Source of the DNA: Trebouxia sp. TZW2008
Lineage: Eukaryota; Chlorophyta; Trebouxiophyceae; Trebouxiales; Trebouxiaceae
Assembly (NCBI GenBank): GCA_002118135.1
Contig: BDIU01000136.1
Coordinates: forward strand, 434,001-498,000
Direction: 5' to 3'
Length of the DNA: 64,000 nt
In this document: positions 1-64,000 of the stretch, in pieces
How the letters are laid out: each line of letters starts with the position of its first letter
Numbering within the stretch: the stretch's first letter is position 1
Made by a program: the position numbers and the translations under genes
Notes under the pieces: model-generated
Told to the model about the DNA's origin: nothing
The model's database searches: none
Seen by the model: the letters and a program-made list of their open reading frames with translations, nothing else

Positions 1-231
1 ATCAACCTGGCACCAGCTGAGGTACTTTTGCTTTGGATGCTTCGATTTGCACGCTCCTTTTCTTATGACTATAGTGGCAGGGAGGGCTGGTCACTGCTGC
101 TGGATGAAAGCTGGCACCAGCTGAGGTACCTTTGACTTGGCTTTTTTGGGTTTGTATAGTTTTTTTGTTATGATTGAACTGCCAGGAGGGCTGGCGGCTG
201 CTGCTGGATGATGTCAATTGGCACCAGCTGA
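1..231 (+). repeat. Three copies of the AAA2 Walker B exon end
   Basis: Unit of about 105 bp. The window-opening exon ends GGCACCAGCTGAG followed by GTAC; the same 3' end with a donor recurs at 111-125 and 219-231. The copies extend upstream into CTGCTGCTGGATGA, so they include most of the Walker B coding sequence, but they carry frame-breaking changes. Only the first is usable. Confidence 0.85.
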
Positions 232-2873
232 GGTAGCTCCTGCTGACTTGCTGTGATTTGTGGTCTATGTTTTTGTCAACTTTGAGGCTTGATTGCTAAA
301 TTCAGAGAGATGAAGTCTGCAGATGCTTTGTATAATACAATATTCAACATAGTTGAAAGGCCACAAACTCCAAATTTGATTTGAGGATTTTAAACTTCGA
401 AATCAAATAGAAATCCAATTCTAGCCTCGGTTGCCATGATCTACTTTGCAACATGCTGCCATTGAGAGCACAGCTGGTGCCTTAGTTTCTGCCTGGCTGT
501 CTTCTTCTTCTCTCATTTTCTGTCTTCTTCTTCTTTCTTTCTGGTCGCCCTTTCATGTTTCTGCCCTTTGCTGCCTGCTTCTGCCCCTCAGCACGCTGCC
601 AATAACTGCATAGGTGGCAGCGTTCTTCTCTACCTTGCTGCAGTATTGGTCTCTGCCTTTTGGAGTTTTGCCCTTCACTGCCTAGGTCTGTCGTTCAAGG
701 TCCTGCCCGTTGCCCCCTGTCACGGTCTGGATCTGCACTTCAACTTGCTGCCCCTGAAGGCTCAGCTGGCATTTTGCTGTAAGGTCCTTGAGCCATGTCT
801 TTTCTGCTGTTACTTTCTCTCGCACCACAAAATGCCCAGCAGTGATTTGTGCGCAAACTAGGTCACAGCATGAAGTACTTGTCTCTCTTCGGTCAGACTG
901 CACTGCAGAGGGTATCAAGTAAGAGCTGCTGCTGTGAGCCAGACTTGCCACGCTCTGCTTTGCAGTCTGCTGCAAGTCAGCATGGTACCTCCTGCTATCA
1001 CGCAGCTGCAGTATCCACAGCATCAATGTCGCAAAGGACATTGCGCAGGTTTGTAAAAGCGTGCAGGGCAAAAGCACCATCAATGGCATCAATTGATCTG
1101 CACAAACGGTTGGACCATGCTGTTCTGTTGCACAGGTCCTGAAGGCAGTTTGCTGCATCTGCATCTGCACCTGACAAGGTCACTGCACTTTGCTAGCAAC
1201 TATGCAGGTCAGCATCAGCATGTAAAGCACCGTTAGTAAGCATTAATACATGATGGTGTTAATGACAGGCCCCAGAGAGTATGGCAGGGCTGCTGGAGGG
1301 CTGCAGCAGCAGTGTGACTATGCAAAGAGTAGGGCGCATGCCTCTGCAAGCCTGCGAAAACCAATGTAGACACCAGTGCTTGATGTTTACAGTGGGTGAG
1401 CCAGTTTGCTTTGTTGCACAGGCCTTAGAGAGGGTAGCAGGCCTGCTCGAGGGCAGCAGTGGCAGTGTGACTGTGGCAGAGAGGGGGGATCTGGGGGCAG
1501 TACCCCGCCACCCCAACTTCTGCTTGCTGGCTGCCATGAACCCCGCCACGGACGCTGGCAAGCGCGACCTGCCCGCACCACTCAGAAACCGCTTCACTGA
1601 GGCAAGAAACGGCTGCATAAATCATTCTGGCTGTTAGATTGCAAGCATCATGCTGCCTGGCTTGCATAAAAGTGATCATGCCAGAATGAGGGAGACAAGC
1701 AATAGCTGCTGCATGAGTTATTTGACTGAGATGCAAGCCTATTGGCGTGCATTTCTTGCTTGTGGACCACACCACCTGGTGAGTAGCCCCAAGCATGTCA
1801 TGCTGTTTGCTTGAGGTGGAGCACGCGCTCATCTCCCTGGAGAGCATACTGCAGCAGATACACATGGGCAAAAGGCCGTGCAATACAGCATTGAGCTCAG
1901 CGTGTTAACGCTTCAAGCATATATGGCCATTTCTGCACGCCTTGAGCCACAGAGTCAACAGACGGTGCTGGCTTTTCATGCACAATGGTGAATGTCATCG
2001 ATTCTTGCGGTATTTTCACTGCTCTGTGGCAACATCTGATCAGCAACCCTGCAACTCCCTGATTGCTCTATGTCAAACTTGAGGCTCAAGTGCAGATATG
2101 GGTGGCTGAGCCAGATGGGCGTGAGGACTTATGCACCCTGGTGGGGGCTTACCTTGGGGGCACGGTGCCCCACCCTCCCATAGATAATGCAGTCAACTTC
2201 TACCAAGCAGCCAAAGCAGCAGCGGTACGCTCAATTGGCAGTGGCCAGTCCTACACCCTTCGATCACCTCCCCCCTCCCCCCAGCATCAACCCAAAGCCA
2301 AACTCATGCTGTACATCAGGAGACGCGATGTTCCGTGTCACTAGATACTTGTGTAGCTTGATGTCGCACAGCGTATTGCGTTGCGCCCATTGAGCTGTTG
2401 TTGTGATGCGCCACCTATACACATGTAAGCTGTGAACATGGATTCTAGCTCGGGGAGCATGACTGTGCTTATGACTGCGGTCCATGACTGTGATGTAGGA
2501 ATCAGGGCAGTTGCAGGACGGGGCAAGTGCAAAGTTCAGCTACAGCCTGCGCATCCTCTTTTATGCATGGCGCTGTTGTATAGCATCAGCACGTGAGCCC
2601 ATTTTGGCTTGCTTGAGACTCAATTTCTATGCATGACTACTGCAGGAATCAGGGAAATTGCAGGATGGGGCAAATCAGAAGCCCAGCTACAGCCTGCGCA
2701 CCCTCTGCAGGGCCTTGGAGTACTGCACAACTGCCCTGCCCCTGTACGGCATGCAGAGGGCCCTTCTGGACGGCCTGAAGATGGCCTTCATGACTCAGCT
2801 GGACCCCAGCTGCGCGCACATCATCCATAGCCTTATCAACTTACACATTACTGGCTCAGCCAAACCACCCAAG
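1..2873 (+). CDS. MDN1: Midasin exons 1-4: AAA2 from Walker B to lid
   Basis: Exons: 1-21, 1422-1601, 2096-2224 and 2646-2873, all joining in phase 0. The first encodes INLAPAE, the tail of a Walker B motif; decayed copies at 81-125 and 181-231 still read LLLDE or LLLDD just before it, so the missing half probably ends in LLLDE. The second encodes a helix reading LERVAGLLEGSSGSVTV, then the sensor segment LLAAMNPATDAGKRDLP and the arginine-finger region LRNRFTE. The third (IWVAEPDGREDLC) and fourth (YSLRTLCRALEY) form the lid. Exon 2 ends with GAG followed by GCAAGA, an apparent GC donor; exon 4 ends with AAG followed by GCATGC, a second candidate GC donor, although four later copies of its 3' end have GT donors. 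AAA numbering follows known midasins and is inferred from the domains that come after. Confidence 0.9.
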
Positions 2874-5800
2874 GCATGCTCCCCTGATTTGGTTTTGCCA
2901 CAGTTCTGCCGCTGCAATGCTTGCCTACTGATTTTCATTCAACTCAACTAGAGCCTGCTGATCATTTGCATCTGCAAAACAGAAACCAATTTCCGAGCTA
3001 TATGTTTCTACTGTTGCAATACACATCATTTGCTCAGCCAAACCACCCAAGGTGCATGTGAAGGACTGCAGCTGGTCTGTCATGATATGATTGCGACTTG
3101 CGCATCATTTGTGCGCTCACATCATCCACAGCCTCATCAACCTACACGTCATTGGCTCAACCAAACCTCCCAAGGTGCAGTACCGTAGCATCTCCTTATA
3201 CAGACTGATTTGGTTGTTCAATGAAGGAATGTTCTTACACAGAGGTAGCAGTGCAGTCAGCATGCAGTGATTGGCTCCGAGTTGCAATGTGTTCGCAACA
3301 AGAATGTTGCAATAGGGAGAAATGAGTGTAGCTGCATGTGAAGGACTGCAGCTAGTTCTACATGCTGCTATTATTGCAGCTTGTGCTCACATCATCCAAA
3401 GCCGCATCAACCTACGTATCACTGGCTCAGCCATACCATCCCAGGTGTGAAAGAACACGCTGCACCATCAGGCGTCATGATGGGAGCCTCTGACTCTGTG
3501 AGTAAGAGCAGCCCTGGGCCTAGGGCGCAGTAATTGCATGTCCAGGACCGCAGCTGGTCTGTCATGCTGCTATCATTGCAGTTTGCGCATTGTCTGTGTT
3601 CACATCAACCACAGCCTCATCAATTTACACATCATTGGCTCAGCCATACCACGCGTGGTGAGAAAACAGAGTTAAACACAGTCAGGCGCCGTGGTGAGAG
3701 CCTCTGTGAGTACAAGCAATCCTGGCCTCAGCAGCCCTGGCCAAAGGGCGCAGCAACTGCAGGTCAAGAAATGTTGCTGGACTGTCATGCATGCTGCTCT
3801 CATTGCAGCTTGCACATCATTCGTTCAAGTCTGAATGCTCAAGTGGTTGATTTACCAACTGATAGGTCTCACCCTATGATATTTGCCTGAGTGCAGCCCC
3901 AGCTGGTGGCTGTATTTTTTGGTTGACTCGCCGCAGGTTCTCATTGTCTTCTTATTGTGCAGACCCTAGAGCGGCGCCTGCAGGCATGTTAGGCTCGACA
4001 TATGGTTCATCAGAGGTTATCAGTTTGTGACGCTTTGTTGTGCAGATCCTGGAGCGGGTGCCTGCAGCGCCAGCAAGGGCTTGACTAGTGATTGATGCTT
4101 GATGGGCCTCAGCTTGAGACTCTATATTATGCAGACCCTGTCGCAAGTGCCTGCAGTGCCGTCAAAGGCTTGACTTGTGATTGATGCTTGATGGGATTTC
4201 TTGCTGTGCAGACCCTGGAGCGGGCGCCTGCAGCCTCGGCAGGTGGCAAGCACGTCCTGTTTGAGCAGTTCTGGCTGGAGAAAGGGCCAGCACCTGTTCC
4301 TGAAGATTCCTCTGCTGATGGTGAGTCTTATTGCACTAGGCTTTGTTCAGTACCTACAGCCGAGCATTATTGTCTTCAGCCTGCACATTGTGGAATGCCA
4401 CCTTGCATCAAGACATTCTGCTGGATGCTGTCACATGCTCCAACATTCACTGAAAGGCGTGTCTGATGTCTCCCTCTTAGCTGCAAATTGAGATGTGCAA
4501 CATGTATGCAATATTGCCAGTCTGAGTATCAAAACAAATCAGATAGAAGAGTCTTGCCCTTTTTGCACACGTCAGACAGGATTGCTCCTTACTGCCTGCA
4601 GGCTTGGGAGGGCACTTTGTGATGACAGGCAGCGTGAGAGGGCACCTGCACAATTTGGCCAGGGCAGCCCTTGTTGGCCGCTACCCAACCCTACTGCAGG
4701 TATCCAAAGCACTTCACTTGTAGCATGTGATCAATGCCTCAAAATGATCGCACCCTTGTGACAACAAGTGGCTTGTGACAGCATTCTGCTCGTGTGACAA
4801 TCTCTCCAGATAGTAGCAAGCAGCTGTGCAAACGGATTGCATTGCTATAGCACACCAGCTTGTTTGTAAAAGCCTCATGATAGTCACAAGCAGCTGTAGA
4901 AATTGCAAGTGATTGCACACCAGCACGTCTTGAACCACCCCAACCAGTCACAAACCTTCGTGAAAGACTTGACTGTGACAGCACACTGTTAACACGCTGG
5001 AGCCTCTGCTGTAGGGTGCTCAGTGTCTGTAGCCCTTGCAGTGAATGCTGCACTTCATGTCACTGTCTGTGCATATGTGTCAAGGAGCAGAGCGACAGCA
5101 GCGATGATGATGTTAGCTACTTGTCCTCCAATGCTGAGTACTTCGTGATGACTCAAAAGTACGCTGAGCTGCTGTCCTGCTGTCTGGTGGCAGTGACATC
5201 ACCACCCTGCATGGCTCAAATGCTTTCCAGAATGAGGCACAGCTTGTCATCACAGTGGCAAGGCGTATGGTGCTATGTCTGAATCAGAGATGTAACGTAC
5301 CTCTGTGCAAGTTGCAGCATGCAACATGTGCCCTAATGATGCCCTATCACATGAACAGGTACTATTACAGCTTTCTGCCTTTGTCATACTGTCAGCATAG
5401 AGTCGCCTGCCAACACAGGGTCCCACATCCAGCGGCAAAACCAGTCTGGGTAGCCTTCCTGGCAGCTAGATCACACCCTGCTGTAAGACTGCTATACGAA
5501 TGCTATTCTGAAGACTGTCATAGCTTTCCTGTCTCTCTGATGCAACAAGCAGGCTCTTGACTGCTGACACAGGGTCCCACATCCAGCGGCAAAACCAGCC
5601 TTGTAGCCTACCTAGCAGCCCAGACAGGTCACACCCTGGTGCGCATTAACAACCACGAGCAGACAGACCTGCAGGAGTACTTGGGTAGCTACATCCCTGA
5701 TGAAACAGGGCGGCTGGTGTTTAGGGAAGGCGCTCTTGTGACTGCTGTCAGGCAGGGTCATTGGCTGCTGCTAGATGAGCTCAACCTAGCCCCTTCACAA

Positions 5801-8800
5801 GTGCTAGAGGCGCTCAACAGGTGAGTCATCAAAGTTTTGTGAACATAGCAATCATCATCAGTCAGAAGACGATGAAATGCCAGTTCATCATGATGTGTTT
5901 CGATCAGTTGAAGCTCAAGCAAGCAAGTTGCCAGCTGTAGACAGGCACTGGCTGCTGTGGATGAGCTGAGTCTGGTCTACTCACAAAGTCCTGGAAGCTC
6001 TCAACAGGTCTTATACAAACACCAGAACAAAGGAAATGCAAAGGCTGTGCTTGTAGACATCACAGCAAGACCCTCTGAGAGCTGAATGAAGCTCTTTCAG
6101 AAGTCCTCAGAGCTACCTATGCTGCTGGACATCGTCACAAGAGCCCACATGAGCAAAAGAGGCCATATCTTTGATTGACTGAAATGTGTTTGATGAAATG
6201 TTTGATTGATTGAAATTATAGTGTCTGTAGCTCAAATAGCAATTTGCAACCTTTTAGGTCTATTTGCAGGCTGTTTGAATGCAATTTGAAAAGGCTTTTT
6301 TGTGATTGCAGGCTTCTTGATGACAACCGGCAGCTGTTTGTGCCAGAGCTTCAGGAGACCATCAACCCACACTCACACTTTATGCTCTTCGCCACACAGA
6401 ACCCTCCAGGTAACTCATCTCACCCTTTCATGCAGGCATATATCCTGTTCAATCTTGGGCATGAAAATTCATCACTGCCTTTGATGTAATGATGCCACAC
6501 AGCATCTTCAAGTGACCCTACCTATGCCCCCATGCACCCATCTTGATCAACACCGGTCAAAACTGCCTGAACACAGCTGAACGTCTGCTGTGGTCAGCAT
6601 GTCTGTAACACGCTGTTGAACCTTTCAAGTCAAAGAACGCCAAGCAGCAAAAGTAGAGGTGTTACTGGCAAGGCCCACAACTGAGCTGATGCGATGCTGC
6701 AGGGCAATATGGTGGGCGAAAGGTGTTGTCGCGTGCCTTTCGGAGCCGTTTCCTAGAGCTGCATGTGGGAGACCTGCCTGACTCAGAGCTTGAGTATATT
6801 TTGCAGCAAAGATGTGCCCTGGCACCTTCTTACTCCAAGAAGCTTGTTGGTGTCATGCGCGAGCTGTATCGCACACGTCAGGTAACTGTCATGAATGTAT
6901 ACAATATAGCTGTGCAACTTTCCCTAGCAGAGATGTGCTCTGGCACATTTTCACTCTAAGAAGTTTGTTGGCATCATGCGTGAACTGTGTCGCACACCTC
7001 TATGCATGCTTTTAATCATCTTTGCTAAAGTCGTCTGGTCACAGATGCCACAGGCATGGGTCGTCAAACATGCTGACCACTATGCTGTACAGAGGCCATG
7101 CTTTCACCCTGCACAGCATGCAAAAGAATATCAAGGCAGCATGTCTGACTGTTACTGCCATTTCACAGTTACCGTACGCGTGGTTGCACACCAACCTGGG
7201 CCCAAAATCCGCAGTCACGCAACAAATTTGCGGAGAAGCACAATGCATATAATGCCACGCACAGGTCAGCAATGTGTTTGCTGGGAAGCATGGCTTTATC
7301 ACCCCAAGAGACCTCTTCAAGTGGGCAGGCCGCGGTGCAGTAGGTTATCAGGAGTTGGCAGAGAATGGATATCTGCTGCTTGGGGAGCGATTACGAACTG
7401 CTGAAGACCGTGCTGTGGTCCAAAGAGCACTTGAGAAGCAGCTGAAAGTCCAGGTGATCTGCTTGCTTGGCATTGACTGTGTTATGCAATTACGCTATTT
7501 TGGGATTTGCTCCTCCTCAGGGGTTGTCAGTCAGCCCTGAGGAGCAGCCCTTGTTATGCATGTCTTCAAAGTACACTGCCCCAGCTCAAGAATGTGCCAA
7601 ATGAGAATGTGCCTGTGCATCGTGCCTGTGCAGCCTGTCTAGCTGCCAAACCTTAACGATCAGCAGGACACCTGGGAATCAGCCAGACTCATTCTATAAT
7701 GTGCAGTATATGCGCTGTATCACACATCAGCCATCATTTAGTCCTGGTAAAACCACCAAGCCGACTATTTGTGGTGCAGCTGGACATGGAGGGCCTTTAC
7801 AACAGAGACGGCAGTGCTCCTCTTCAGCATTTGCAACAGGCCCTGACTGATGAGACGAAGAGGGCTGGTGCGCATGCTGGCGGGGGTAGCCTGGCAGGGG
7901 TGGTGTGGACCCCAAGCATGCGGCGCATGTACACCCTACTTGACAGGTATGGGTTGTGGCTGGCCTTACATTTACCCTGCTTTACAAGTTTGATGTTCAC
8001 CATTGATCATAGCCTCTGGCTACCTTGTGACATCAGTGTTGAGAGGTGAACGTCACAGATGTGCGGAGCACTGCGGATCTGTGTTGTTTGAGAGAAACAC
8101 TGGCAACACCACAGGCAACAACATATGGTCAACTTATGGAACATTGCCATTGCAGATATGCACAGCACTGTGTGCCAGGACTGCTGGTGGTTGACACTGG
8201 GACTGGCAAGACCACAGTATGCCAGATGTTGGCGCTATGAGGGGACAGCAGCTGCATATCATCAACATACTGGATGGCATGATGATGGCATTGCAGGTGT
8301 GCGCAGCACTGCGAGCCAGCACTACTGGTGGGTGACACTGGGACTGGCAAGACCACAGTGTGCCAAATGCTGGCACTCATGAGGGGACAGCAGCTGCACA
8401 TCATCAACTGCAACCAGCACACTGAAACCTCAGACTTCCTTGGAGGCTTTCGGCCTGTCAGGTATCAGAGTGCACTCTCACAGCTGCTGTACGCCCTTGG
8501 GTGGAAATGTCTTTTGTTTGTTGTCATTTTTGTGCTGCAAAGCAGCAGATTGATGGCCTACTGAAACATCACAATCAAGAGATGTCAATGCATGTCACTT
8601 CAGGCTGCATATGCTCACACCAATCCACAAGTCCTCCTCTCAAGTTGGCCCTGCTGCCATGTATGCCCTTGGCTTTGCCCTCTCAGCGCTGCAGATGCAC
8701 ACAGGAACAGAGACAGAGCCATGTATGCATGCGCAGTGTTTCATGCTTCATTTGGCGGTGCATCATCTTCTAAGCGCTGCTATCGCACGTGTAGGGACAG

Positions 8801-11800
8801 AGACAGAGCCATAGGCAGGTTCCATGCAGCGCTAGCAGAGCTGCAGCAGTCAGAACTGCTGACCAGCTGTGGTGTGACTGTGCCCACTGCTGATGAACTG
8901 GCTGGCCCTGAGCTGATGGCTGTGGCCACCGCTGCCACAGCTGCAGTCAGCGCTGCCGAGCATCACTTGCAAGCCCATCTCAATGGTCGTAGCTGGGACA
9001 GTGAGCACCTTCTGCACGTGTTCATGGCCTCTGCCTGCTATGTGCATCAACATGACTGTGACTTCTGAGTTATCAATTGTCTGCACAAGTGAGGTGTGAG
9101 TGTGCCCACTGCTGATGAAATGGCTTGCCCTGAGCTGATGGCGGTGGCCACCCCTTCCACAGCTGCAGTCAGCGCTGCTGAGCATCGATTGCAGAGCATA
9201 TTCCGAAAGCTGCAGCTGGGATGATGCACACCTTGCATATGTGGTGACACCGAGGCAGCTGCTTGAGATCATGCGCAATTGTCTTTGTGGGCATGCCCAT
9301 CTGCAGATTATCTGTGCCATCACACAAATAGCCACAGCGGTTGTAAGCTTCATTGGCAAGCATGGACAAGTCACAGTCAGAAAATACTCTGGCGCTGCAT
9401 CTGTGTAGTTGAGTGTGCACAAAGAATAGCGCGCATGTGATTGATATTTCCTGACGATGTAAGAGCACGGCATGCTAACAGCAGAATGCTAGGACCATCA
9501 GGTACTGTACGTACCTGTGTTTCACATGAACGTCATGCTGTTGCAGCTTAGTTGGCAAAGGCAAAAGCTGCTGTGGACACAACGGCAGAATCATCTGCCT
9601 TCAGACTGCATTTATTCTGACATTGTTTGTAAGGCCCCTTGTTGGATCCCTGCAACAATGAAGGTACATTCACTGGTTGTCTGACTGGTAGATTCAATGC
9701 ATTGGTTGATTGGTGATTGACTGACTGTTCCTGGTGCAGCTGAGCTGGCAAGGGCAAAGCATGCATTGGATACAATGACAGAAGCAGCTGCCATTGCAAG
9801 AGCCCCCTTTGAATGGGCAGACGGCCCTCTGGTGACTGCCATGCGCCACGGCGATATCATCCTCATTGATGAGCTCAACCTTGCTGAAGACGCTGTCCTG
9901 GAAAGACTCAACAGGTGACTTTCCTGTTGCTTGTCTGACACTGCTATCCTGGCCCAATTGTGCTGAATTTGCTGGCTTGAAACAAACAGTGAGTCTGTTC
10001 TGAAGTTGCCAAGCCTGCCATGCGCCAAGGCGATATCATCCTCATTGATGAGCTCAACCTTGCTGAAGATGCTGTCCTGGAAAGACTCAACAGGTGACTC
10101 TCATGATGCCTTTTTGGCCCTGCTTTGTTGCATGTGACATGCCAGAGCTCCCTTTGAATGGGCAGACTGCCCTCTGGTGACTGCCATGCGCCAAGGCGAT
10201 ATCATCCTCATTGATGAGCTCAATCTTGCTGAAGATGCTGTCCTGGAAAGACTCAACAGGTATTTCGCTGGCTGTCTGGCCCTGCTTTTTGGCCCGTGCA
10301 TGCTAAGGACTCTGAACTTCAAGGCAAACAACTGCTTAGGTCCTTGATCTGTTTGGCCACAGTATCTGGCCTGAACTGGGACTGTTCACCAGTCAGAGTA
10401 TTGTTTGCATGTACTGAAACCATAGCTTGGTGCACGGCGCGCCATAACTTCACTGTTGCTTGTTTGTGACATAAACATTACTTCTATAGAGTGGAGTAGA
10501 CCAGGGACACATGCGTAACAAAGCCATCCTGCAAACAAGCACCTGTTAGCCATGACTGCAACATAGGCAGTCTGCCTGTGCTGACACATAGTAGCACTTA
10601 GTGTTTCCCATAAAGCTTTGTGATGCTGGCATCTCAGGCTGCAGCATGGCCCTAGTTTGTCCGTGCATCGTGCTGGAGCCAGCATGTGACCGTACTTCTC
10701 ATTGTCTGTGTAGCGTGCTGGAGCCTGGCCGCAGCCTAACCCTAGCAGAGAAGGGCGGGGCAGGGGCAGAGCTAATCAAAGCTGCCCCAGGCTTTCGCTT
10801 GGTGAGCACTATGAACCCGGGAGGTGACTACGGCAAGAAGGAGCTGTCCCCTGCGCTTGGTAACAGGTTCACGCAGATTTGGGTGCCTGGCATTGAAGAC
10901 GAAGAGGAGCTTACTGCCATTGTGCAGTCTCGCTTGACAGGTGAGCCCCATGACTATCAGCTGTTAGTAATATGATTCACAATTCATATGTGGGACATAA
11001 TAGGCTTGGACTGTCAACATCAGTGGCGCAAATGAGAATGAGCAAGTGGGCGATAGCATGAATGAAGCTGTTGTCTTTGAGGTCAAGGTTTTGGAACACG
11101 TTGTCTGAGATTGTATATACTGACAGCAGTGTCGTCAGCAGCCGCAACTCATGGCTTGGTAAGCATCATTCAACAGATGTTTAGCACCCACTTGATAGAC
11201 CAAGACTTTTTTGCTTGAGGCTTTGTCTGACTGCACTGTCTACCAGGCTTGGCTAGATGGCATGTGTTTGGCTTTGTTGCTTGCTTGACATGCAAAGTTG
11301 CTGTCAGTGCGTAGCAATGCGTCTGAGGTGACTGGCTGTGCTGAGCACACACTTCCACCACCATTCCATATGCGTGACCACCATTGGCAGATTGCCACAG
11401 TGCTGTGTTTTGAGCATCTTGATTGGCTATATTCTGTGCATACAAGCTTGCTAGCAACAAATTGTCTGTGTGTAGATGTGGCTGAGCGGCAGGACCTGAC
11501 CCACAAGCTGCTGGCCTTCTGGAACTTCTACAAGGCAAACGCTGGCGCTGCCCGCACTGGCCTGTCGGTCAGGGATCTGCTTGCCTGGGTAAGGTCTTGC
11601 TTCATATCTTGCCGCGACAGTTGCCCTCTTCAAGGCTCTCGCTGGCAAAACTGTGAGACTCCATCTGGTTCTGGAACACATGCTTTTCACTGCTATGTTC
11701 TATTTTGTGAAGACCCTGCGTGCAAGCAACAGCCAATTATGCCAGCGCAATTGTTTTGTGAGCATCTTTAATACGGACTGCCAATGCAAAGCAGTCGTAT

Positions 11801-14800
11801 TCGTTTAGTGCAGGCTTGACTGTTGGTGCTGCTTCGTGTGAAGCCTTGTGCAATGCATTCACTATGTCAGAGACTGCCTGAATTGCCACTGTGTGGCACA
11901 TGCAATCAGCCTTGTTGGCTGGCTAAAGCATGTAAAACTATATTCTCTCACACATGACAATGATGCATTGCCATCAGGACGTTGCGTTCACGGGGACGCG
12001 TCATGCTGCTTCTACATGCAATGCTTTCATGCTGCTGTTTTGGATCTGTGCGTCCCTGTTGAAGCTGACTGTGAATTGCGTGTGCAGGTGGGCTTCATAA
12101 ATGTAGCTGCGCCGCATATAGGCAGGGAGGCAGCGTATGCACATGGAGCGCATTTAGTGTTCCTGGATGGTATAGGGCTGGGAGTGGGCATGCCCCTTCA
12201 GGTCCTGCCCTGCGCTGCCCTCCCCTGCCCTGCCCCGCCCGCCCCTGTCCTGTCCTGCCTGACCATGGGATTCTGAAATCTTTTGCCTGTGATTGTGTCA
12301 TGCTGTTTCAAGCCAGATTTGCTTGGAACCATGAGCAACGTTTTGAACTGTCCTGCTTGATGTGAAAGAGCCCACAGCTGTAGTCATGCAGGTGTCACAG
12401 ACCGCCAGAGGGCTTCAAGCGTTGCTGCTGACTCAGACTGCAAAACATGTTCTGCTTGCTGCATGTTCCAGGACCAGACACTTATACTTGCTGTATTGAC
12501 GCTGGCGTCTTTTGAGCATCACGGGAAAGACATTTGTTGGTGCAAAACAGCAACAATGCAATGTCATTAATGCAGGTTGCACAAGTTTTGAAAGGAGAAG
12601 TGCCAGCGCTTTCTGGCTGATCAACTGCCAGAGCAACAGTCACAGCTTGCACAGGTGGCAGACACTGAAGCACCACTCATCAACTGCCACCCTGTATCAA
12701 GAATCATGGAGACGACATCTGATGGCTGTGTGACAGACTGCCAGTCTCAGTGTTAATGATGCAGGTTGCACAAGCTTTGAAAGAGAAGTGTCAGCGCTTT
12801 CTGGCAAATCAGCTGCCAGAGCATCAGTCACACCTGGCATCGCACACCACAAAATGGGTCCCAACACAGGTCAACCATGGCAAGGATGTCTGAAAATTAT
12901 GTGGCACTTTACCAACGCTGCTGTGTCATTGAAGCAGGTTGCACAAGCTTTGAAGGAGAAGTGCCAGCGCTTTCTGGCAAATCAGCTGCCAGAGCATCAG
13001 TCACAGCTTGCACAGGCGGCAGGCACTGCAATTGCACAGAATGAACAGATACCTAGTTTAACAGATGACATGCAAATAGAGCAGAGTAGTGAAACAGCAG
13101 GTAGGGTTTGCCTGTGTTCTCTGTTGTTTCTGATTGGCCTCACCAAACGCACTGACCGGTGTGATGGTCAATGTCAGCATTCGCCTGATCATCATGACAG
13201 CGTGAACGATTTTGTCATGAAATGCCTAGTAGCCGTGGCTCATCAGGCTATCAGTAATCAAGCATTGTCATCTTGTCATTGCATGCAATTTGTTTAATTG
13301 CTCTACTGCTGCTGCATTGCTGATTGTAATCAAAGTTCAGGGATGTTATCTTTGAGACTTCATTTCGAATGGCCTGCCTCGACAGACTTTTGCATCAAGC
13401 AGTGCTACCTCAGACTACAACATGGCTCGTATGTGTTGACTGCCAATGCAGGTTGGACACCTTCTGATAGCCTCCTTGAATTGCTAAAGTGTTCACAAGT
13501 GTTGACTGCATTTGCAGGTAGAAGTACTTCAGACACCCTTTGGGGCATCCCGCCATTTTTTGTAGAGCGTGGACCCCACCCCAACCCCCCTGATGCACCC
13601 CCCTTTGACTTCAGAGCCCCTACAACAGCCAGCAACGCCCTCAGAGTGCTAAGAGCCCTCCAGCTGAAAAAAGCAGTACTGCTGGAAGGCAGCCCAGGAG
13701 TTGGAAAAACCAGTCTTGTTTCTGCGCTCGCCACAGCTGTGGGACAACAGCTAGTCCGGATCAATCTGAGTGAGCAGACTGACATGATGGACCTGTTGGG
13801 CGCAGACCTACCCCTAGAGGGGGGTATCCCAGGGCAATTTGCTTGGTGAGTCAGTACCCTCTTGGCTGTCATGTAGTGCTTGGGTTTTGTGGCTTTGTAA
13901 GTTGACAGTCTCACACCTGTCATGTCCTCTGCTCAGTGTTCATGCAGACACCAACTGTGCCTGTTCTGCTGGCAGTTCACAAGGCGTCATACAGTGCTTT
14001 GGCATCATCGGCTGCCTGTCACATATAACCACCTTGCCTGAAGCTGTTCCTCATGAAGACACCAGCTGTGGCTGCTTGCTGTCCGTTAGCAAGGTGTCAT
14101 ACACTGCATCGGCATCATCAGCTGCCTGTGACATACATTTGCCTTACCTCAAACTGTGACTCAGGTGTGACGGCCCGTTGCTGGCAGCCATCAAAGCAGG
14201 TCACTGGGTACTACTGGATGAACTAAATCTGGCAGGGCAAAGCGTGTTGGAAGGCCTAAACGCTGTGCTGGATCACCGAGCAGAGGTGTTCATTCCCGAG
14301 TTGGGCCAGACCTTCAAGTGTCCCCCTTCCTTCCGCTTGTTTGCGGCCCAGAATCCCCTGCAGGAGGGTGGGGGTCGCAAGGGGCTCCCCAAATCCTTCC
14401 TCAACAGATTCAGCAGGGTGCACATCCAACTGCTGCAGTCGCAGGACCTCCTCTTCATTGCTGGTAAGCCCTTAGCTGTCAAGTGAGCCCTGTGTCTGTG
14501 TTGGCCCAGTCACTGTCTGTCAAGAATATACAGCAGCACTATTTCCTGCCCCCAGATGTAGGGTTGTCGCAGCTGCATCAGTCACAAGCTCTACTGCTTA
14601 TTGCTTGCGATAAGCTGCTTGGACTTGTCCCTGGTCCAGAATCTCACTTGCCACATGCAACAACTGCATGAACTAGAAGCTTTGTGACACTGAAGACTGA
14701 CTTTCTCACTGCCTGGGGGCTGCTGATGGGCCTGATTCAGGCCCCCTGCACCCATGCATCCCAGCACTTGGCTTGGTCAGGATAGAGGCGTCGTGGCAGA

Positions 14801-17800
14801 ACTTCGTCAAGGAGCTGATCTGCTTAGCTGCTTGGCTTTGAGATTAGCTTTCTCCATGTCGTCAGGGACTTGCGTGGCGTTGCAGATTAACTGCATCTGC
14901 ACATTTCTGCAAGCTGCTTGGGCAAGACGATGGCTTTCTTGGCAGAACGTCATCAGGCAGCCAATCTGCAGCGCAGCTTTGCCTCTGCTGCTGAACCCCA
15001 GAGTTCACCTGTGCCATCTGCTGCGCTGCTGACAACATCAATCTTGTCTGGTTTGCAGGCTCACTGCATCCATGCTTTCCAGCAAACTGCTTGACCAGCA
15101 TGGTGGCCTTTCTGTTGACTGACATGCACACCATCTGCTAAGCTGCTCAGCATCAAGAACTACTTTTGGCATGTGGTCAGGGCCTGACTTTCATGGATTT
15201 GCAGGATCTCTGCACACACGCATTTCAGCAAGCTGCTTGAGCAAGATGGTGACCTTCCTGGCAGAACTTCATCAGGCCGCCAACCTGCAGCGCAGCTTTG
15301 CCTCAGCCGGCGGGCCTTGGGAGTTCAATCTGCGTGATCTGCTGCGCTGGTGTGACCTAGCACAGGCAGCTGTCCCTGCCAATAGGTATGCCCATGCTGT
15401 GAAAGCCCTGCATGCCTCATGCACCATTTTGTCAACAAAATTTGGCTGTCCATGTGCACACCGCTGTGAATGACCTCTGCCACGTTCGTTTGCATCCTGC
15501 ATTCATCGCAACTGCTCTTTATGCTGTGGTCCTTTTTGCTGTTGAGCATGCACATATGTACTCTGCAACTGCTGTTCATGCTGTGGTCCTTTTTGCTGTT
15601 GAGCATGCACATATGTGCTCTGCAACTGCTGTTCATGCTGTAATAAGTGCCTTTGCATTCTTTTGAAGACCTGTGCAACAAATTCTTGTTGGCTTGTATT
15701 ACATGTGGTGCAAACTTTTGTCACTCAGGTTGCAAGTTTGCTGTCATGCTCACTGCTAGCCTCTTGGCTGCACTTGACTGCACCTTCGTCTGGTTTGTCA
15801 CTGCACACCTGATCTGCCTATGCCCTCAGCCTGATCTCATCAGACTTTGACAGTCTTACACACTTGTTAAGTCAGCTGTAGGTTTGTGTCTAGGGAAGGT
15901 GGGGCCGCATGTGAGCTCGCAGTAGAGCACTTCAGCCAGATGCTGTTTGTGGATCGGCTTCGCACTGCTCAAGACTGGCGGTACCTAGTGGACCTTTGCC
16001 ATAAGCGCTGGGGTTGCCTTTCACCTTTCATGACATCGGTGTTCAGTGATAAGACCTGTGTTTTCACTGTCTCCAGGGATGGCGCTGCTGCAATAGAGCG
16101 TGCTGTCGAGCATTTCAGCCAAATGCTGTTTGTGGAGCGGCTTCGCACCGCTCAAGACCGGCAGCACCTAGTGGACCTTTACCACAAGTGTTGGGGTCAA
16201 CCCCTACCCCTCACACCCCTTCCTGAGCTGTCCATCACCCCTACTGATGTCAGGCTGGGCTGGGCTGTGCTGTCACGCACATACCTCCAGACAGACAGGG
16301 CTAATCCCGGTGAGCCATGCGTTTGCCAGACAGGCACTGTTGACTTTGATGCAGGCATTGACTACAGCAGCTGTGTTTGACTTGCCCAGCATGTCACATC
16401 AGTAAACTGAGCTGGCCTGATGAAATGCAATACTGCATGCATACATGCTCAGCAAGCATTGACTACAGCAGCTATGTTCGACTGGGCTGGCATGTCAACA
16501 ACAGTAGAACAAGCCGGCCTGACGCAACACCGTACTGCCAGCATACATGCTCGGCTTGTGCACATCTGAAAGAGGTGTTTCTTCTCTTGCAGAGTGCATC
16601 CTGTACAATCCTCCACTTCTTGCTGTTCCCCCTTCCCCATCCCCCCCCCTTGGGTCACCTCAATTTCAGCAAGCAAGTGCATCCTGATCATAATAATAAT
16701 AACAATAAATAAATAGTAATAACAATAATCGATGCAGCGTCTGCAATCCTCCCATAAAGCCAGTCCTGTTCTGTTATACAGAGTAATGTGGAATCAACCA
16801 AACCCAGGTCAAGTCTTGAATGCTCTTGTCACAATCACAGGCATCTGAGCATGCATTTTTGATGCCTTTGCAGCAGCACGACCATCGTGCCCCGCTTCTC
16901 AGCACACAGCCAGGCAATACCCTTGAGCTGCTGCCCAGTAAACAAGCAGTGCTGGAGTCAGTGTTGCAAGCCATCAGCAAAGGCTTGATGTGCATTCCAA
17001 ATCCATGCCTATTGTAAATTGTGTCCCTCATGCAGTTGTAGGCAAAGCTGCAGCAAGACCAGCATGCCCAAGCCCCACTACACAGGATGCTAAGACTGTG
17101 TCACGCATGCATTTGCAGGCAAGCTTGCAGCAAGGCAGTCGCGCCCTGCTCCCAGCACACAGCCAGGTTGAACACTACAGCTGCTGCCCAATGCACAAGC
17201 TGTGCTTGAGTCAGTGCTGCAAACCATCAGCAAAGGCTGCATGTGCATTTCAAATACACACAGCCCTCTGTAGTATGTTCCTGGTCCGTTTGCAGGCAGT
17301 TTTGCAACAAGGCCAGCATGCCCCGCTCCCAGCACACAGCCAGGCAACACACTACAGCTGCTGCCTAGTGAATAAGCTGTGCTTGAGTCAGTGCTACAAG
17401 CCATCAGCAAAGGCTGCATGTACATTTCAGCTACACAATGCGCTCTGAACCATCTTTCTGGCGCATTTGCAGGCAGGCTGGCAGCAAGACCATCGTGCCC
17501 CAATCCCAGCACACAGCCAGGCTGCACTCTACAGCTGCTGCCCAGTGAACAAGCTGTATTGGAGTCAGTACTGCAAGCCATCAGCAAAGGCTGGATGTGC
17601 ATACTAGTGGGTACCTCAGGGGTGGGTAAGACAAGCGTGGCTAGAACTGCTGCCCAGCTGGCAGGCAGGCAGCTGACTGAGATCGCACTAACGGGAGGGA
17701 CAGACACTGCTGACCTGCTGGGGGGGTTTGAACAGATGGAGCCCAAGCGCAAGGTTCAGGTGAGCATGCTGCGCTGTGTGTGCTTTGCATGCTTTGCATG

Positions 17801-47800: not shown

Positions 47801-50800
47801 CACAGCAGGCCCAGCAGGGGGTTCAGGAGGGTCCCCAGGCACCCCCCCAAGGTCAGCAGAGCTCTTTTGGGGTGGCTGAGCCCGGTCAAGGGGGTGCCCC
47901 CATGCCCACCTCGGGTCATGAGGGGGGTCAACAGAAGAATGATGCGGCTGAGCAAAGAGAATCCAACCCTTACAGGTAAGCTGGAGAAGTGCGCTTGCAT
48001 TGATTGGGGCTACATTCACAAGGACTTCTCTCTGTAACAACTGCTTTGGCTCCCAAGAAAGTTGTCCTTATATCAATTTGTCCTTACTTAGAGGTGCCAC
48101 AGCAGTCAGAATGCAGTGATCAATTATCAATTGCATTGTCTTTACATCAGCATTGTCCTTACAATGAGTGTTCTTACAAAGAGAATTACTGTAGCACCTT
48201 TTATGTCATAGCTGCTCAATCTGGCACAGCTATGCTGAGGAAGGATAGCGGTCTGGATAAACAGCAACTTGGTTGCAGGCTGTGGACACCTTCTCTGCAT
48301 GTCTTGTATTCACAAGATGCTTCTGCTTAACATGAAAAGGAGTAAGCCCTTTGCAACCCTTTGCTGGGGTCGCAAAGGCTGCATGTCAGACATGAAGCAC
48401 CAGTCACATCATGAGATGCTTGTGATACTGACGTTCATCAGTTGTCAAATCTGTCAGCGGAGTGCTCATGTTGTGGGTCATTGGGGCACGGTGCAGCAGT
48501 TAACGACTACCATGCTTTGCCCACAACCTGGTCACATACAGATAGTTTGTTTGTTCTTGTGTCATGTGTTTGCATGTCATGGTGAGCACTTTGCAACAGT
48601 GATGTCTGATCATGCAGCAGTCTGGGAGATGCTTAAATGCAGTGGCGGTCCCACCTTGCTGTCAGGAGACCTATAGAGCTCCTTTTGCTTTTCTGACATT
48701 TGACAGCATTGCTGAATTGACGTGCTCTTGTGACTGCAGGAGTTTGGGAGATGCGTTACAGCAATGGCGCTCCCGCCTTGCTGTCACAGGAGACTCAGCA
48801 ACAGCAGCAGCAGCTGAAGAAGAAGAGCAGCCAGTAGCTGATGCAGCAGCAGATGCAGCAGCAGAGCAGGACAAAGCTGACAGCCAGGGCAAGTATGAAT
48901 TCATGGCCGAGGGCGAGGGCAGGGCAGAGGGCGAAACCCAGGCTTTGGCCCCTGCCACAGAGGATCAAGCCAAAGCCATTGAGGCATTGGACCAATCCGG
49001 CTTGCCTGACCAGGACGCTGATGACGTCACGGCAGCTGAGCAGGAAGCTGAGGCACCGCAAGATGACTCGTCGGAGCGCATGCAGGCTGAACAGGTGCTG
49101 AAAAGCAGTACAGGTGGCACTCAGGCTCCAGCTAACATGCAACAGGATACAGCACAAGAGCAGCATCAAGATTCAGTTGTGCCCAGTGGTGAGTCTGATG
49201 CACAAGCTGATGCTGCCATGGGTGAGGCAGAAGAGGAGCGGGCAAAGCTGGATGACAGCTATGTGAGTGCCCAGCTTCAGAGAGCTTCCTTGTCTGATGG
49301 GGCAGCGGGTGGCTTGCCTGATCAGGACATGGTGCTGGCTGAGGGTGGACTCAGTGCCGAGTCAGCTCAGCAGCTGAGGAGGGATGTTGAGCTGCGAGTG
49401 AAGGCAGCGTCGGAAGGGACCCTGCAGTTGGACACCTCAGAGCAAAGCCTCGCATATGGCCAGGAGGTAGTTGCTTCACCCTACTTGAACCATCCTGTTG
49501 CATCTGACTTGTAGGCATGCTCTTGATTGCTTACTTTGCTCAGAAATGCGCATGCCTCTGGCATCAACCCTTGCCGTTGCACACAAGTATGTTGCTTGAT
49601 TGCAGCAGTTCTGTATGTCGCTTGTGTCTCTGAGTCACAGCAAGATATGCAGAGGTGGCATCATATTGCCTGACAGGCAGTTGGGGCTTCTGAGATATCT
49701 GTCTCCAGTTCAAGCTGAGTTGTCTTGCTTCATTGTCCTCGACTGTATTTTGCGGATTTGAGATTATGCTTGCTGCACATATACAACATGTGTGAAGGTC
49801 CTGCTGGCTAGGTTGTGTTGCTTCATTGTCTTCCTCAGTATTTGAGGAGCTTGTGAATGCTTGCTGCAGGTTTTTGACAGGTGTACTGATCTTCAATTTT
49901 TGTGACTGCTTTATGCAGGTTTGGAACAGGTGTGAAGCTCTGACTGCTGGCCTGTCTAGTGACTTGGCTGAGCAGTTGCGTTTGGTGCTGGAGCCACAGC
50001 TGGCTAGCAAGATGGCAGGGGAATACCGCACTGGCAAGCGCATCAGCATGAAGCGAGTCATTGCATACATTGCATCGCACTACAGGAAGGACAAAATCTG
50101 GATGCGCAGGACACATCCAGACAAGCGCAAATATCAGGTCAGGCACACACTACAATTATTCAGTTCAAGCAGAATTTTGGTGCTTGATTGTGCTTGACTT
50201 TCTTCAGCATGTGCAGGTGAAACTAGCAGTCTGTGTACTGGGTTCGCAGCCTTACTCTGCTATGATGCATGACCCATAGCATACACATGTCAAGGGCGCG
50301 CAATCAGTGCAGGCAATTTCATGCACCTCAAGCTGTTTGCTTTCTGCATCAAGTGGTGTTGCAGTCATGTGCTGCAATGAATGCATCACAGCTCCATGTA
50401 CCTAGTCCAGGCTGTTCTATCTGACCTGTAGCAAACACTCTGTATGCATGTGAGCTTTGCATGGGCTCTTGGCACTGGTTTGAGTCTGCTGAGACTGATG
50501 CTGCAAATGCTCCATGTATGCAAGACAAGAAGTGGCAGCACAACGCCCAATTTCTTGTGGCTTGACAGGTCGTTGTTGCTGTGGATGACTCACGGTCTAT
50601 GGGCGAGAATGGCTGTGGTCCATTTGCTTTGGAGGCAGTCACTTTGATCTGCAGAGCCATGGCTCGCCTGGAGGTGGGTGAGATGGGGGTAGTCAGCTAT
50701 GGGGGCAGCAACAGCATCCTGCCCTTGCATCCTCTGGAAAAGCCCTTTGCAGATGCGGACGGGCCAGGCGTCATGGCTCAGATGAACTTTGCACAGGTGA

Positions 50801-60722: not shown

Positions 60723-61231
60723 CGTCTGAAGGGCGTTCACGTTCTTCAAGACAGCGTTTGAGGTAGATGTACGTGCACAGTGATGCTGTGGACGGCAAGC
60801 ATCCTCAGCGTACACCCGCGACGGGACTGAGGCGCCTGACCATCTGCCGTTTCCTGTACTGGAACGTAGTTAAACGAGGTCACGGTTCCCGGAGTCGCCG
60901 CTACTCAGTCAAGGTGGCGCCAACGAAGATCAGCTGAAACAAGGCAAGTGTTGTGCCTCTTCAGTCAACAGGTAGGCTGAATGCAGTGTCGTGAAGCGCC
61001 AGGTCATATACGCAGCTAGCTATATAATCCATAGCATAGCACAGCATGCAGCAGCATGCAGCGCTGCGTGCGGGTCAGCATCGCATGCAAGGCATGCTGG
61101 CAATCACCGCACGCTGACGATTGTTCCGTTCGGTATTTGCCCTCCTGTGCTCTGTTGCAGGCCGCCCGAAAACGTAGCCAAGTCGTGCAGTATACGCATG
61201 TACATGTGCGCGTGAGACCGCTTCAGGCGGC
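60723..61231. promoter_or_regulatory. Shared upstream region of two divergent genes
   Basis: The CWC2-like gene starts at 60722 on the - strand and the unrecognised gene at 61232 on the + strand, so these 509 bp must contain both promoters and 5' UTRs, possibly as a bidirectional promoter. I saw no TATA box at a convincing distance on either side and cannot point to individual elements. Confidence 0.5.
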
Positions 61232-64000
61232 ATGACGGACAATCCCGACCTGGTCCCTTTTGCTAAGTTTGACTGGATTGATGCACTGCCAGACCCTGCA
61301 GACAATCTGGACGCCTTGTTGGCCAAGTATGCACGTCTGCGCTTTGTGTACGAGGTAAACCTGCGTTGTGATCAGCTTGTTTGCTCGCGACTGCTGACGA
61401 AGGCCGTCAAAGCCATTGTCCCGACAATCACCTAATCCTGAAAATGTGCGCAGACAAAGCGACAGCGACGCGACAGAGGTCCGCGGAGAGAAGACCCGCC
61501 ACAAGCCTTTGCTGGAGGTTCAGTGACTCACAGTCCAGCAGTGTTAGCGTTAGCACCCCAGCGCGACCATGCAGACAGCCCAACTGCTCATTCTGCGCTG
61601 CAGCAGCCTGCATATGTCCCTCCTTCAGCTGGCCGGTCCCCACAGACAGTCCAGGCTGCAGCCCCAGCTGAGTACGCTGGATGGGAACATGTCTCCAGTC
61701 CGGCTCTAGCAGCCCAGCCACGCCAGACAATGCAAGTCAAGGATGCAACAGCTGAGCAAGCTTTTGAAACCAGCTCTCCGGATTGCAGAACACCTCACCA
61801 TTCCATGCTTCCTGCACCGGGCGCCTACATGCTACAATCTGGCCAGATCACGCACAGCAAAGAAAACCGGCAGCCTGCAGGGTCTGGCAGCATTCTGGAG
61901 GACCCCATTGTTGCCACAGCATGGCAAAGCAAGAAGCGCAACAGCAAAGGTGCTCTGAATTGGCGCAAGGGTGGGTCCAAGACCTGGACGACATTGAATC
62001 TGCAGCAGGCATCTTCAGGCAATCCAGCCGTGAAGCAACAAGGGCTACTTTCAATAGGCAGCGGGTTGCCACTCAGAGCGCAACACCCTGAGCTGCCCCC
62101 ACTGCTACCGTGTGTACCACAGCAGCACTCAAGTGTCTGGAGTGATGCAGATGATATTGACACAGACCCCACACCTGACAGGCACATGCTTGATACTGAG
62201 AGACACGCTGCAAGCAGCTTGAAGGCCAGAGCCACAGAGGCATTAGCCAACCATAGCAACCCAAAAGCAGCACTGCACATTCACCCTGCCCGTACAGACA
62301 CCAATGCAGGCAATGAATGTGCTGAACCTGTTGTGGCTCAATGGAGTGAACAGCAAGCCAGGCTGCCTAGGCATAGTGCTTTTGCCTCACCTCCAGAAGG
62401 CTCTGAGACTCAGCCTGAGCTGCCCATACAAGCTAGGAGTGGCCAGCAGCTCGTGCAGACTGCCCGTCCACACATACATGCAGGCAATCAAGGCGCTGAG
62501 CCTGCACTGATTCAACAGACAACCTCCGCCTCACCTGTGGAAGAAGGCTTCCAGACTCAGCCTGAGCTGTCCACGCATGCTAACAGTCCCCAGCAGACGC
62601 CACTGCCGCAACAGTCTACTCAGTGTGCAGATACACCCATGCAGTCTCAGCTTCTGCGACAGCCAGTGCCCCACCATTGTGCTCAGTGTTCAGACACACC
62701 AAGACAGTCTCAGCATATGGAAGCCCAACAGGTGCCACCCCTTCAGCAGTCTGATCAGCCTGTGTACAGACCAGAAAACCCTCAGAGTATGCAAGCCCAA
62801 CAAACGCTGCGCCCTCAGCTGTCTGCTCATTGTGCAGACACCCTGAAGCAATTTGAGCACATGCAAGCCCAACAGACACCACTTCCTCAACAGTCTTCTC
62901 AGCTTGCAGACACACCTCATCAGTCTCAGCGTATGCAAGGCCAGGACACCTGCATGCCGTCAGCTGACTTGCGGAATCAAGCAACCGACTTGGGATTGCA
63001 TGACCGTGACTGCACGCAACTCACAGGCAGCAAATCAGACCAGCAGAGTGGCGCCAACACAAAGCTGGGCATGCCTGAAGGTGCTGCTGGAAGCATAACA
63101 CAGTCTGGCAACGGCCAGCAGGGCTTGCATATACAGACGGACAGACCTGTGCAAGTGCTGATGTCCCTGGGCAGGTGAGTCAACAAGTGACAGCACTGCT
63201 CCATCCTGATCTTACTTTGTAGTCAAGCAAAATGACATTGGCAGCAGCGTTTTGCCACTAAAGCAGCTGACATTCCCCCAGCAACACACAATGTGTTTGC
63301 AACTGCATATCTCAGCCAGCAGTTTGTTGACACTGCTCCAAGTCAGTCATATATACAGCCAGTCAATTGCTGAGGGACCATCTAGGAATTCAGAAACCAT
63401 GAGCATTAGACATGTCATGATACCAGCAAATGCATGTTGCAGGTTTGTGGCCGCTCTGCTGGGTAGCTCAGAGCAGCTTGCATATCAGCTTGTGGTGTTT
63501 GATGTTGGTCAAGCTCCCCCAGAAGTGGTGTGTGCAGTCAAGCTACACGCTGCACAGCTGCAGCCTGAGCCCTGGCAGCTTGGCAATTGCATGCAGCTGC
63601 AACTTGTCAGGTGAGACCTGCACAGGACAGAAAAGAAAATCATGTATGCAGTCAAGCTACATGCTGCACAGCTGCAGCCTGAGCCCTGGCAGCTTGGCAA
63701 CTGCAGTCGCAACTTGTCAGGTGTCACCTACACGGGACAGAACTGATGATATTGCATGATCACCACGCATAGCTGCAGCCTGAGCCCTGGCAGCTAAGCA
63801 ATTGCATGCAGCTGCAGCTTGTCAGGTGAGCGGAGTACAGTGGGACCTGCACAGGATAGTTAGTATATTGTTGCATGGTCACTGTACATAGCTGCAGCCT
63901 GAGCCCTGGCAGCTTGGCAACTGCATGCAGCTGCAATTTGTCAGCTGAGACTTGCGAAGGGCAAATAGTGTGTTGTCGCAAGCTTAACACACATAGCTGT
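61232..64000 (+). CDS. Unrecognised Gln/Pro-rich protein, 3'-partial
   Basis: Exons: 61232-61354 (starting ATG, M-T-D-N-P-D-L-V-P-F), 61454-63174 and 63443-63612, in frame; later exons lie beyond the window. The first exon encodes a compact acidic segment (FDWIDALPDPADNLDALL) that looks conserved but that I do not recognise. The second encodes about 570 residues of Gln/Pro/Ser/Ala-rich sequence opening with a basic cluster (TKRQRRDRGPRR), possibly a nuclear localisation signal. It contains about 4.5 repeats of some 28 residues around ADTP-QSQ-MQAQQTPLPQQS (62590-62945) and an earlier larger duplication (62280-62600). The third is ordinary globular sequence (FVAALLGSSEQLAYQLVVF). The pattern fits a nuclear protein with a disordered middle and a folded C-terminal domain; no function is claimed. 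Confidence 0.7.
63535..63955 (+). repeat. Four copies of the 3' end of exon 63443-63612
   Basis: CTGCAGCCTGAGCCCTGGCA...GCAACTTGTCAGGTGA or similar recurs at 63557-63614, 63674-63722, 63772-63828 and 63892-63950. Spacing is about 100-120 bp. The first three have CAG followed by GT; the last has CAGCTGAG, so its donor is lost. Confidence 0.93.

Follow-up and report, generated by a model that had tools for sequence, protein, structure and literature searches.

Partial copies of exon edges, mostly ending at the splice signal, in introns of the midasin gene (MDN1) and of other sequence of Trebouxia sp. TZW2008

Introns of MDN1 (midasin) in the green alga Trebouxia sp. TZW2008 carry partial copies of the exon edges that adjoin them. 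The copies were studied in a window of 64,000 nucleotides, by which is meant the whole stretch analysed (contig BDIU01000136.1; C132:434001-498000 of the 68.5-Mb genome of 527 contigs). They are real, lie outside the exon, keep splice-like sites (here called decoys) and mostly consist of the exon edge with no more than its minimal splice signal; as a rule, unrelated sequence stands between a copy and its exon. On balance we favour the view that small local duplications, with an offset of about 155 bp, took place throughout the genome in a past episode and were filtered by splicing, and that the copies are their nearly neutral, unspliced relics.

The window is mostly occupied by MDN1, which lies on the + strand, starts approximately 11.5 kb upstream of the window and ends at 51956. 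Its closest relatives are the midasins of Trebouxia sp. C0004 and C0006, and the gene was modelled by purpose-written spliced alignment to these two proteins. Both references supported the same 67 introns, of which one was discarded; nine more were picked by hand between the references, and the donor at 34073 was corrected. The resulting 75 introns (150 junctions) range from 237 to 2301 bp, with a median of 499 bp (exon median, 195 bp), and the splice consensus is CAG/GT at donors and TGCAG/G at acceptors. Two introns, at 2874 and 1602, start with GC; the decoys of donor 2874 have GT. The long exons 36819-37766 and 38368-39105 probably conceal additional introns.

Near-diagonal direct repeats were abundant in the window, with 74 pairs of at least 45 bits, 70 of them at an offset of 50–500 bp. 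One first-order Markov shuffle of the window gave a single pair, of 31.9 bits, and none of at least 45 bits; inverted pairs at that threshold numbered six, one of them within 500 bp. The window and its flanks (114 kb) held 9.5 pairs per 10 kb. Five other stretches, one on the same contig, held 83 pairs in 150 kb (range 1.0–9.7 per 10 kb). Local repeats thus belong to the genome at large, and MDN1 is among the parts that have most of them. A first-pass annotation of the window had attributed junction duplication to the genome and not to one gene, which agrees with these counts, with the PRP8 gene on contig C218 and with the exon-edge association in 230 kb of further sequence described below.

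An intronic copy of the adjoining exon edge (at least 42 bits) was found at 25 acceptors and 11 donors of the 75 MDN1 introns. Thirty-one of these 36 junctions are inside the window and the predicted donor at 63611 in gene 4, at the end of the window, adds one, so that the earlier figure of at least 35 loci was nearly right. Copies had been said to lie upstream of acceptors and downstream of donors, and 29 acceptor and 8 donor pairs were so arranged, with no acceptor in the upstream copy; the lone donor case of opposite orientation disappears when 34073, an intact donor, is taken as the end of the exon. Both this orientation and the continuity of the complete copy with the exon arise because the protein must stay intact, and the continuity, following from coding constraint, is by itself no evidence. 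When compared with shuffled positions, a check named in the annotation, 32 MDN1 edges lay in copies against 17.7±3.0 in 1000 rotations of the exon map (at least 45 bits). Some enrichment at edges is expected, since a copy of constrained exon is recognisable for longer.

The position at which similarity ends was described by x, the number of intron bases included in the copy, and the unrelated sequence between copy and exon was termed the spacer. Junctions with x>100 (18 of 77; 7 of 36 in MDN1 and 11 of 41 elsewhere) were dropped from the x statistics as merged multi-copy alignments, a choice made post hoc. Similarity ended at the splice signal in 42 of the 59 single-copy edges of MDN1 and elsewhere (42 of 77 with the x>100 junctions kept); x was 2..14 in 24 of 34 acceptors and -3..15 in 18 of 25 donors. 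Over 35 acceptor pairs mean identity was 0.80 across the 20 exon bases next to the junction and dropped to 0.58 at 11–30 bp into the intron (null 0.49), and the pairs above the 95th percentile of the null made up 97% on the exon side and 31% on the intron side. Edges coincided with a copy boundary 23 times in MDN1 against 3.1±1.7 by rotation. The association recurs in the 230 kb of further sequence (the MDN1 flanks including 52.1–64 kb of the window, one same-contig stretch and C218 with PRP8), where 26 predicted-exon edges fell at a copy boundary against 5.15±2.24 by rotation. Exons there were called with a gene predictor trained on MDN1, the intron penalty being chosen after trials on MDN1 and PRP8; 26 and 24 of 29 PRP8 introns were exact at penalties of -22 and -26, and -24 was used. 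In PRP8 itself, modelled by homology, 4 of 15 repeat pairs were at junctions (x=5, 3, 6, 6; spacers 29–94).

The copies had been described as tandem, but most are separated from the exon by non-homologous sequence. In MDN1, 26 of 36 junctions had a spacer of at least 15 bp, as had 28 of the 41 junctions in other sequence; the remainder were contiguous (e.g. 42376, 51732) or merged multi-copy arrays. At most junctions the aligned length did not equal the offset, as it does in a contiguous tandem. Two spacers were searched against the genome as candidate mobile elements and each matched only itself, and a search with one 1.6-kb stretch for a second allele or paralogue likewise found only itself. 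Frame-preserving insertion was rejected (offset a multiple of three in 22 of 77, no excess), as were breaks driven by a motif: TGCAG at the copy start peaked in the window region, at 10 of 40 spaced pairs, and elsewhere few cases were found by motif alone. Whether the outer flank might be an old 3' splice site was asked from its T content, which was 0.296±0.016 at decoy flanks, 0.306–0.318 at true sites and 0.276 in random intron.

Similarity that stops where constraint stops could also be left by plain tandem duplications across the junction, the intron half having decayed and the exon half having stayed similar since the real exon is constrained. MDN1 offsets are regular, as for a tandem unit, the enrichment of edges by rotation is modest, and some arrays retain 20–113 intron bp; of the 16 acceptor arrays, 3 had residual flank similarity on the intron side and 1 on the exon side, and of the 9 donor arrays 4 and 1, respectively. 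This history was simulated by duplicating 60 or 90 intron bp together with 50–130 exon bp, the copy and the intron side being allowed to change neutrally and the exon being kept under constraint. Against the 24 of 34 acceptors observed in 2..14, simulated acceptors had x<=14 in 1% of cases with r at 0.07 or at the measured 0.105, in 12% at r=0.15 and in 29% at r=0.20, while x>=40 was obtained in 95% at r=0.105 and 49% at r=0.20. Simple tandem duplication, the origin first proposed, thus failed to reproduce the boundary when simulated with decay. The intron part, where present, differs by 24% and is thus still visible; since codon position 3 differs by 21%, intron and synonymous sites change at similar rates. 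Identity is still 74.5–86% in six intron-only arrays (five of them contiguous) that directly adjoin functional junctions, and hypervariable sequence beside splice sites was ruled out by the same arrays. In the copy at -4377, which has 90% identity with the exon, the flanks are without similarity past the signal. Plain tandem duplication is considered unlikely.

The offsets of edge copies centre on approximately 155 bp. Their spread in MDN1 (core and spacer figures for 29 arrays) is 31 bp, smaller than with shuffled spacers (P=0.0002), a regularity that speaks more for a single event with a fixed size than for insertion at random distances, and one that strains a pure insertion model. It is doubtful that a duplication process coupled to splicing or transcription, or anchored by chromatin, placed copies of exon edges, bounded by the splice signal, in the adjacent intron at roughly the length of one nucleosome (155 bp), lengthening introns genome-wide in one past episode. 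We hold it quite unlikely that insertion was templated by RNA fragments bounded by splice-signal footprints, or by structures at exon boundaries, with the boundary set by the mechanism. The scale near 155 bp and the anchoring of the boundary at both acceptors and donors in several genes would suit such copying, but the copies contain intron bases, so that spliced mRNA was not the template, and most intron-only arrays of comparable divergence are plain DNA tandems.

The annotation had described some copies as nearly identical and the process as continuing. Neither description was upheld: copies of at least 50 bp are 69–91% identical, none of 73 such pairs in the MDN1 region reached 92%, elsewhere 4 of 73 were at 92–95% and none was higher, and the sole near-identical edge copy measures 32 bp. 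Few young copies, if any, remain from the process, a lack to which short-read collapse of near-identical copies, if the assembly is a short-read one, could contribute. The absence of recently converted copies, at 92% or more, among the 73 MDN1 pairs also speaks against the proposal that the arrays are old tandems in which gene conversion with the constrained exon preserved the similarity of the exon half. By eye, the spacers of one array look far more diverged than its exon-like parts, and mismatches were weakly clustered (46 copies, Fisher P=0.025, run lengths); yet intron-only arrays cluster as much (P=0.0065, run lengths) and long identical runs were not in excess (P=0.38), which makes gene conversion decidedly unlikely.

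Copies and exons differ by 11.1, 10.0 and 21.0% at codon positions 1, 2 and 3 (56 pairs; the pair 34002/34218 was set aside), a pattern that indicates one neutral lineage and one exon free to change only at position 3. Thirty-six indels were counted in 53 copies, one of them a multiple of three; indels per mismatch were 0.057, or about 0.08 if three quarters of the mismatches are placed on the copy lineage (our apportioning), and 0.088 in intron-only arrays. Decay of the copies is nearly neutral, the agreement being good but imperfect. The claim of many decoy splice sites was borne out. AG is intact in 37 of 39 decoy acceptors and GT is present at 16 of 20 decoy donors (12 of 20 if the four GT decoys of the GC donor are scored as changed). 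Among acceptors the score was 16.6 half-bits in decoys and 21.4 in true sites, with 25 of 35 decoys inside the true-site range, and decoy donors scored 15.9 against 16.1 for real ones, with the decoy at least equal in 9 of 16. The intact sites, and stops fewer than expected, would fit functional copies, that is, alternative exons or splicing decoys under selection; such a role is very unlikely for partial exons with frameshifting indels and a near-neutral codon-position pattern, and coding exons in particular were ruled out by the last two features. An assembly artefact, which short-read collapse and the missing near-identical copies might bring to mind, is hardly conceivable for copies that are 9–31% diverged, show a codon-specific pattern against the exon and occur on several contigs.

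The reading preferred here remains that of relics of small local duplications. These would have originated in repair-type local duplication with filler or in template switching, and, as the alga is probably haploid, its essential genes would have kept only those events by which the message was not altered. In PMC12712428, Trebouxia sp. A48 is reported as haploid and reports on T. lynnae are said to differ. Tolerance may come from splicing that pairs the inner sites across the exon (exon definition), the outer duplicate being ignored even with an equal signal. The real site appears to be the inner one even beside an equally strong decoy donor, as exon definition predicts; inner-site use was read from protein homology, not RNA. 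That the signal is included in the copy, which gives the lower bound of x, would be explained by the inner copy having to regenerate it.

Several points weigh against this reading. The upper bound of x is not set by selection alone, as survival should be no worse for copies that include the whole branch-point region, and the missing intron part beyond the signal is left unexplained; at the same time 17 pairs, many in multi-copy arrays, carry at least 20 intron bp. Taken by itself, the other sequence shows no significant regularity of offsets (P=0.14), and exons outside MDN1 and PRP8 are predictions. In-frame stops numbered 8 in 1446 codons against 17.4 expected, and two neutral sites at r=0.105 would leave AG in about 80% of decoy acceptors, by our arithmetic, against the 37 of 39 observed (alignments tend to end on matches). 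Decoys of multi-copy arrays differ from one another by 0.158 at positions 1 and 2 and by 0.198 at position 3, whereas a value of about 0.21 in both cases is predicted if they decayed neutrally and independently. Some past constraint on the decoys, or shared descent, is possible.

The closest case found in the literature is a single junction duplication in potato, in which, as here, a local duplicate crosses the 3' splice junction and the former exon part becomes intronic. That one recent duplicate included the branch site and pyrimidine tract and made a new intron, whereas in Trebouxia existing introns were lengthened at many junctions, mostly without the branch-site region (x as given above, some arrays having a longer intron part) and with a spacer. 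Tandem exon duplication, including mutually exclusive exons, also places exon copies in neighbouring introns. Such exons are whole, with both splice sites and an open frame; the present copies are partial, frame-broken (35 of the 36 indels shift the frame, and there are 8 stops) and nearly neutral. Repair of staggered breaks with filler leaves direct repeats flanking unrelated sequence, as seen in most edge arrays; those repeats are short and their boundaries unrelated to gene structure, whereas here they are approximately 30–160 bp and one edge is at the splice signal, as the rotation tests indicate. In the AGGT model of intron gain by tandem genomic duplication, as reviewed in PMC3443670, duplicated exon sequence is likewise spliced out and the duplicated exonic segment supplies AG/GT. 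The annotation had mentioned this route, but the present copies sit inside one modelled intron and AG/GT starts only 7 of 39 decoy acceptors. Introners (PMC9860276) share the genome-wide effect on introns and form many similar copies; in Trebouxia no shared repeat family was seen, the two spacers searched being single-copy. Among the open-access papers listed in literature searches, judged by title and opening of the abstract, none describes exon-edge copies bounded by splice signals, and in a passage search of the Trebouxia genome papers PMC11523091 and PMC12712428 the word 'intron' occurred 0 and 1 times, respectively.

The edge-copy loci of the window are listed in Table 1 with two controls. 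The other genes of the window are a nucleotide-sugar transporter, a minus-strand RRM protein with a sub-threshold Torus match, and gene 4, which has no Pfam match and runs off the window end. Edge copies had been ascribed to all four genes; they were found in two, MDN1 and gene 4. Close to the transporter lies a single contiguous tandem array (53869-54120), outside the predicted exons, and the minus-strand Torus/RRM gene has no repeat pair of at least 45 bits. Repeats in a long open frame of gene 4 (62589-62969, +; one pair at offset 144) are coding repeats and not exon-edge copies.

Table 1. Exon-edge copies, controls and the MDN1 gene in the window (positions of the window).
Feature	Coordinates	Strand	Details
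MDN1 (midasin)	1..51956	+	about the last four fifths of the gene; Trebouxia C0004/C0006 proteins, spliced alignment
acceptor 1422	1265..1483	+	decoy 1265-1329, exon copy 1418-1483, x=4, spacer 88
acceptor 2646	2494..2706	+	decoy 2494-2559, x=5, spacer 81
GC donor 2874	2807..3660	+	decoys 3020, 3112, 3377 with GT; 3601 with GT by extrapolation
acceptor 4212	3949..4234	+	decoys 3963, 4046; x=14, 11
acceptor 5573	5407..5641	+	x=12, spacer 77
donor 5821	5744..6009	+	decoy donor near 6008, 75% identity, ~42 bits, just under cut-off
donor 6882	6805..7000	+	x=-2, spacer 46
acceptor 8297	8145..8408	+	88% identity, x=11, spacer 19
copy of exon 3' part	8868..9193	+	90% identity, ends 29 bp before modelled weak donor 9001 (model uncertain); left out of junction count
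donor 9915	9795..10303	+	decoy donors 10094, 10260
acceptor 12938	12551..13028	+	decoys 12576, 12765
acceptor 15205	14818..15352	+	decoys 14886, 15059
acceptor 16077	15885..16197	+	x=9, spacer 53; two references disagree on acceptor
acceptor 17473	16873..17602	+	decoys 17119, 17296 and two more copies
donor 17760	17694..17917	+	x=35, spacer 24
donor 18769	18652..18948	+	x=-9, spacer 81
acceptor 19411	19247..19518	+	x=4, spacer 45
donor 20293	20225..20559	+	decoys 20424, 20545; two references disagree on donor
acceptor 21964	21661..22084	+	three-copy contiguous tandem, 144-bp period, 23 intron bp included
donor 23671	23635..23856	+	x=33, spacer 84
acceptor 27736	27571..27847	+	x=10, spacer 33
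acceptor 30830	30254..30954	+	decoys 30285, 30455, 30645
acceptor 33265	33030..33348	+	x=61, spacer 29; intron part retained
donor 34073 (manually corrected)	34002..34296	+	decoy donor 34289, x=8, spacer 137
acceptor 36163	35969..36246	+	x=6, spacer 95
donor 36323	36233..36504	+	x=12, spacer 68
acceptor 38368	38006..38525	+	decoys 38017, 38151 (90% identity)
acceptor 42376	42221..42517	+	91% identity, x=7, no spacer (contiguous)
acceptor 43250	43093..43295	+	x=8, spacer 95
acceptor 44296	43601..44363	+	decoys 43740, 43837, 44016, 44116
acceptor 47725	47623..47773	+	x=22, spacer 12
acceptor 48740	48613..48794	+	x=5, spacer 64
acceptor 51732	51522..51772	+	x=78, spacer 11; intron part retained
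gene 4 donor-type multi-copy array	63529..63963	+	predicted exon 63443-63610
control, intron-only contiguous tandem	13940..14163	+	ends 2 bp before functional acceptor, 78% identity
control, intron-only contiguous tandem	28452..28687	+	18 bp before acceptor, 82% identity

Three further features were noted within MDN1 introns. A U5 spliceosomal RNA (46500-46617, +) lies on the same strand within intron 45875-46747 and was matched at full length with 81 bits against a gathering score of 40; a GCTGT pentanucleotide array of 30 copies (20791-20940) lies within intron 20293-21052; and a 57-bp unit is repeated 2.4 times at 15508-15641 with 96% matches, so that fairly young tandems can exist in the assembly. 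Outside the window, domain 1 of Rpb1 (RNA polymerase) was matched at two separate loci, on C304 and C368 (L025-L030), each in several pieces.

Lengthening of introns, as first suggested, was supported in MDN1, where introns with copies have a median of 678 bp (387 bp after removal of the recognised copies) and those without copies 431 bp. Copies make up 24% of MDN1 intron bases, and the rank correlation between intron length and copy bases is 0.56. The copies thus offer a concrete way for introns to grow, and account, in one gene, for the difference in length between the two intron classes. They also provide a dense natural set of duplicate splice sites, with donors as strong as the real ones, among which the exon-proximal site is apparently always used, and hence allow exon definition to be tested directly in a green alga. 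The sharp question that they raise is what places the boundaries of the duplications at splice signals.

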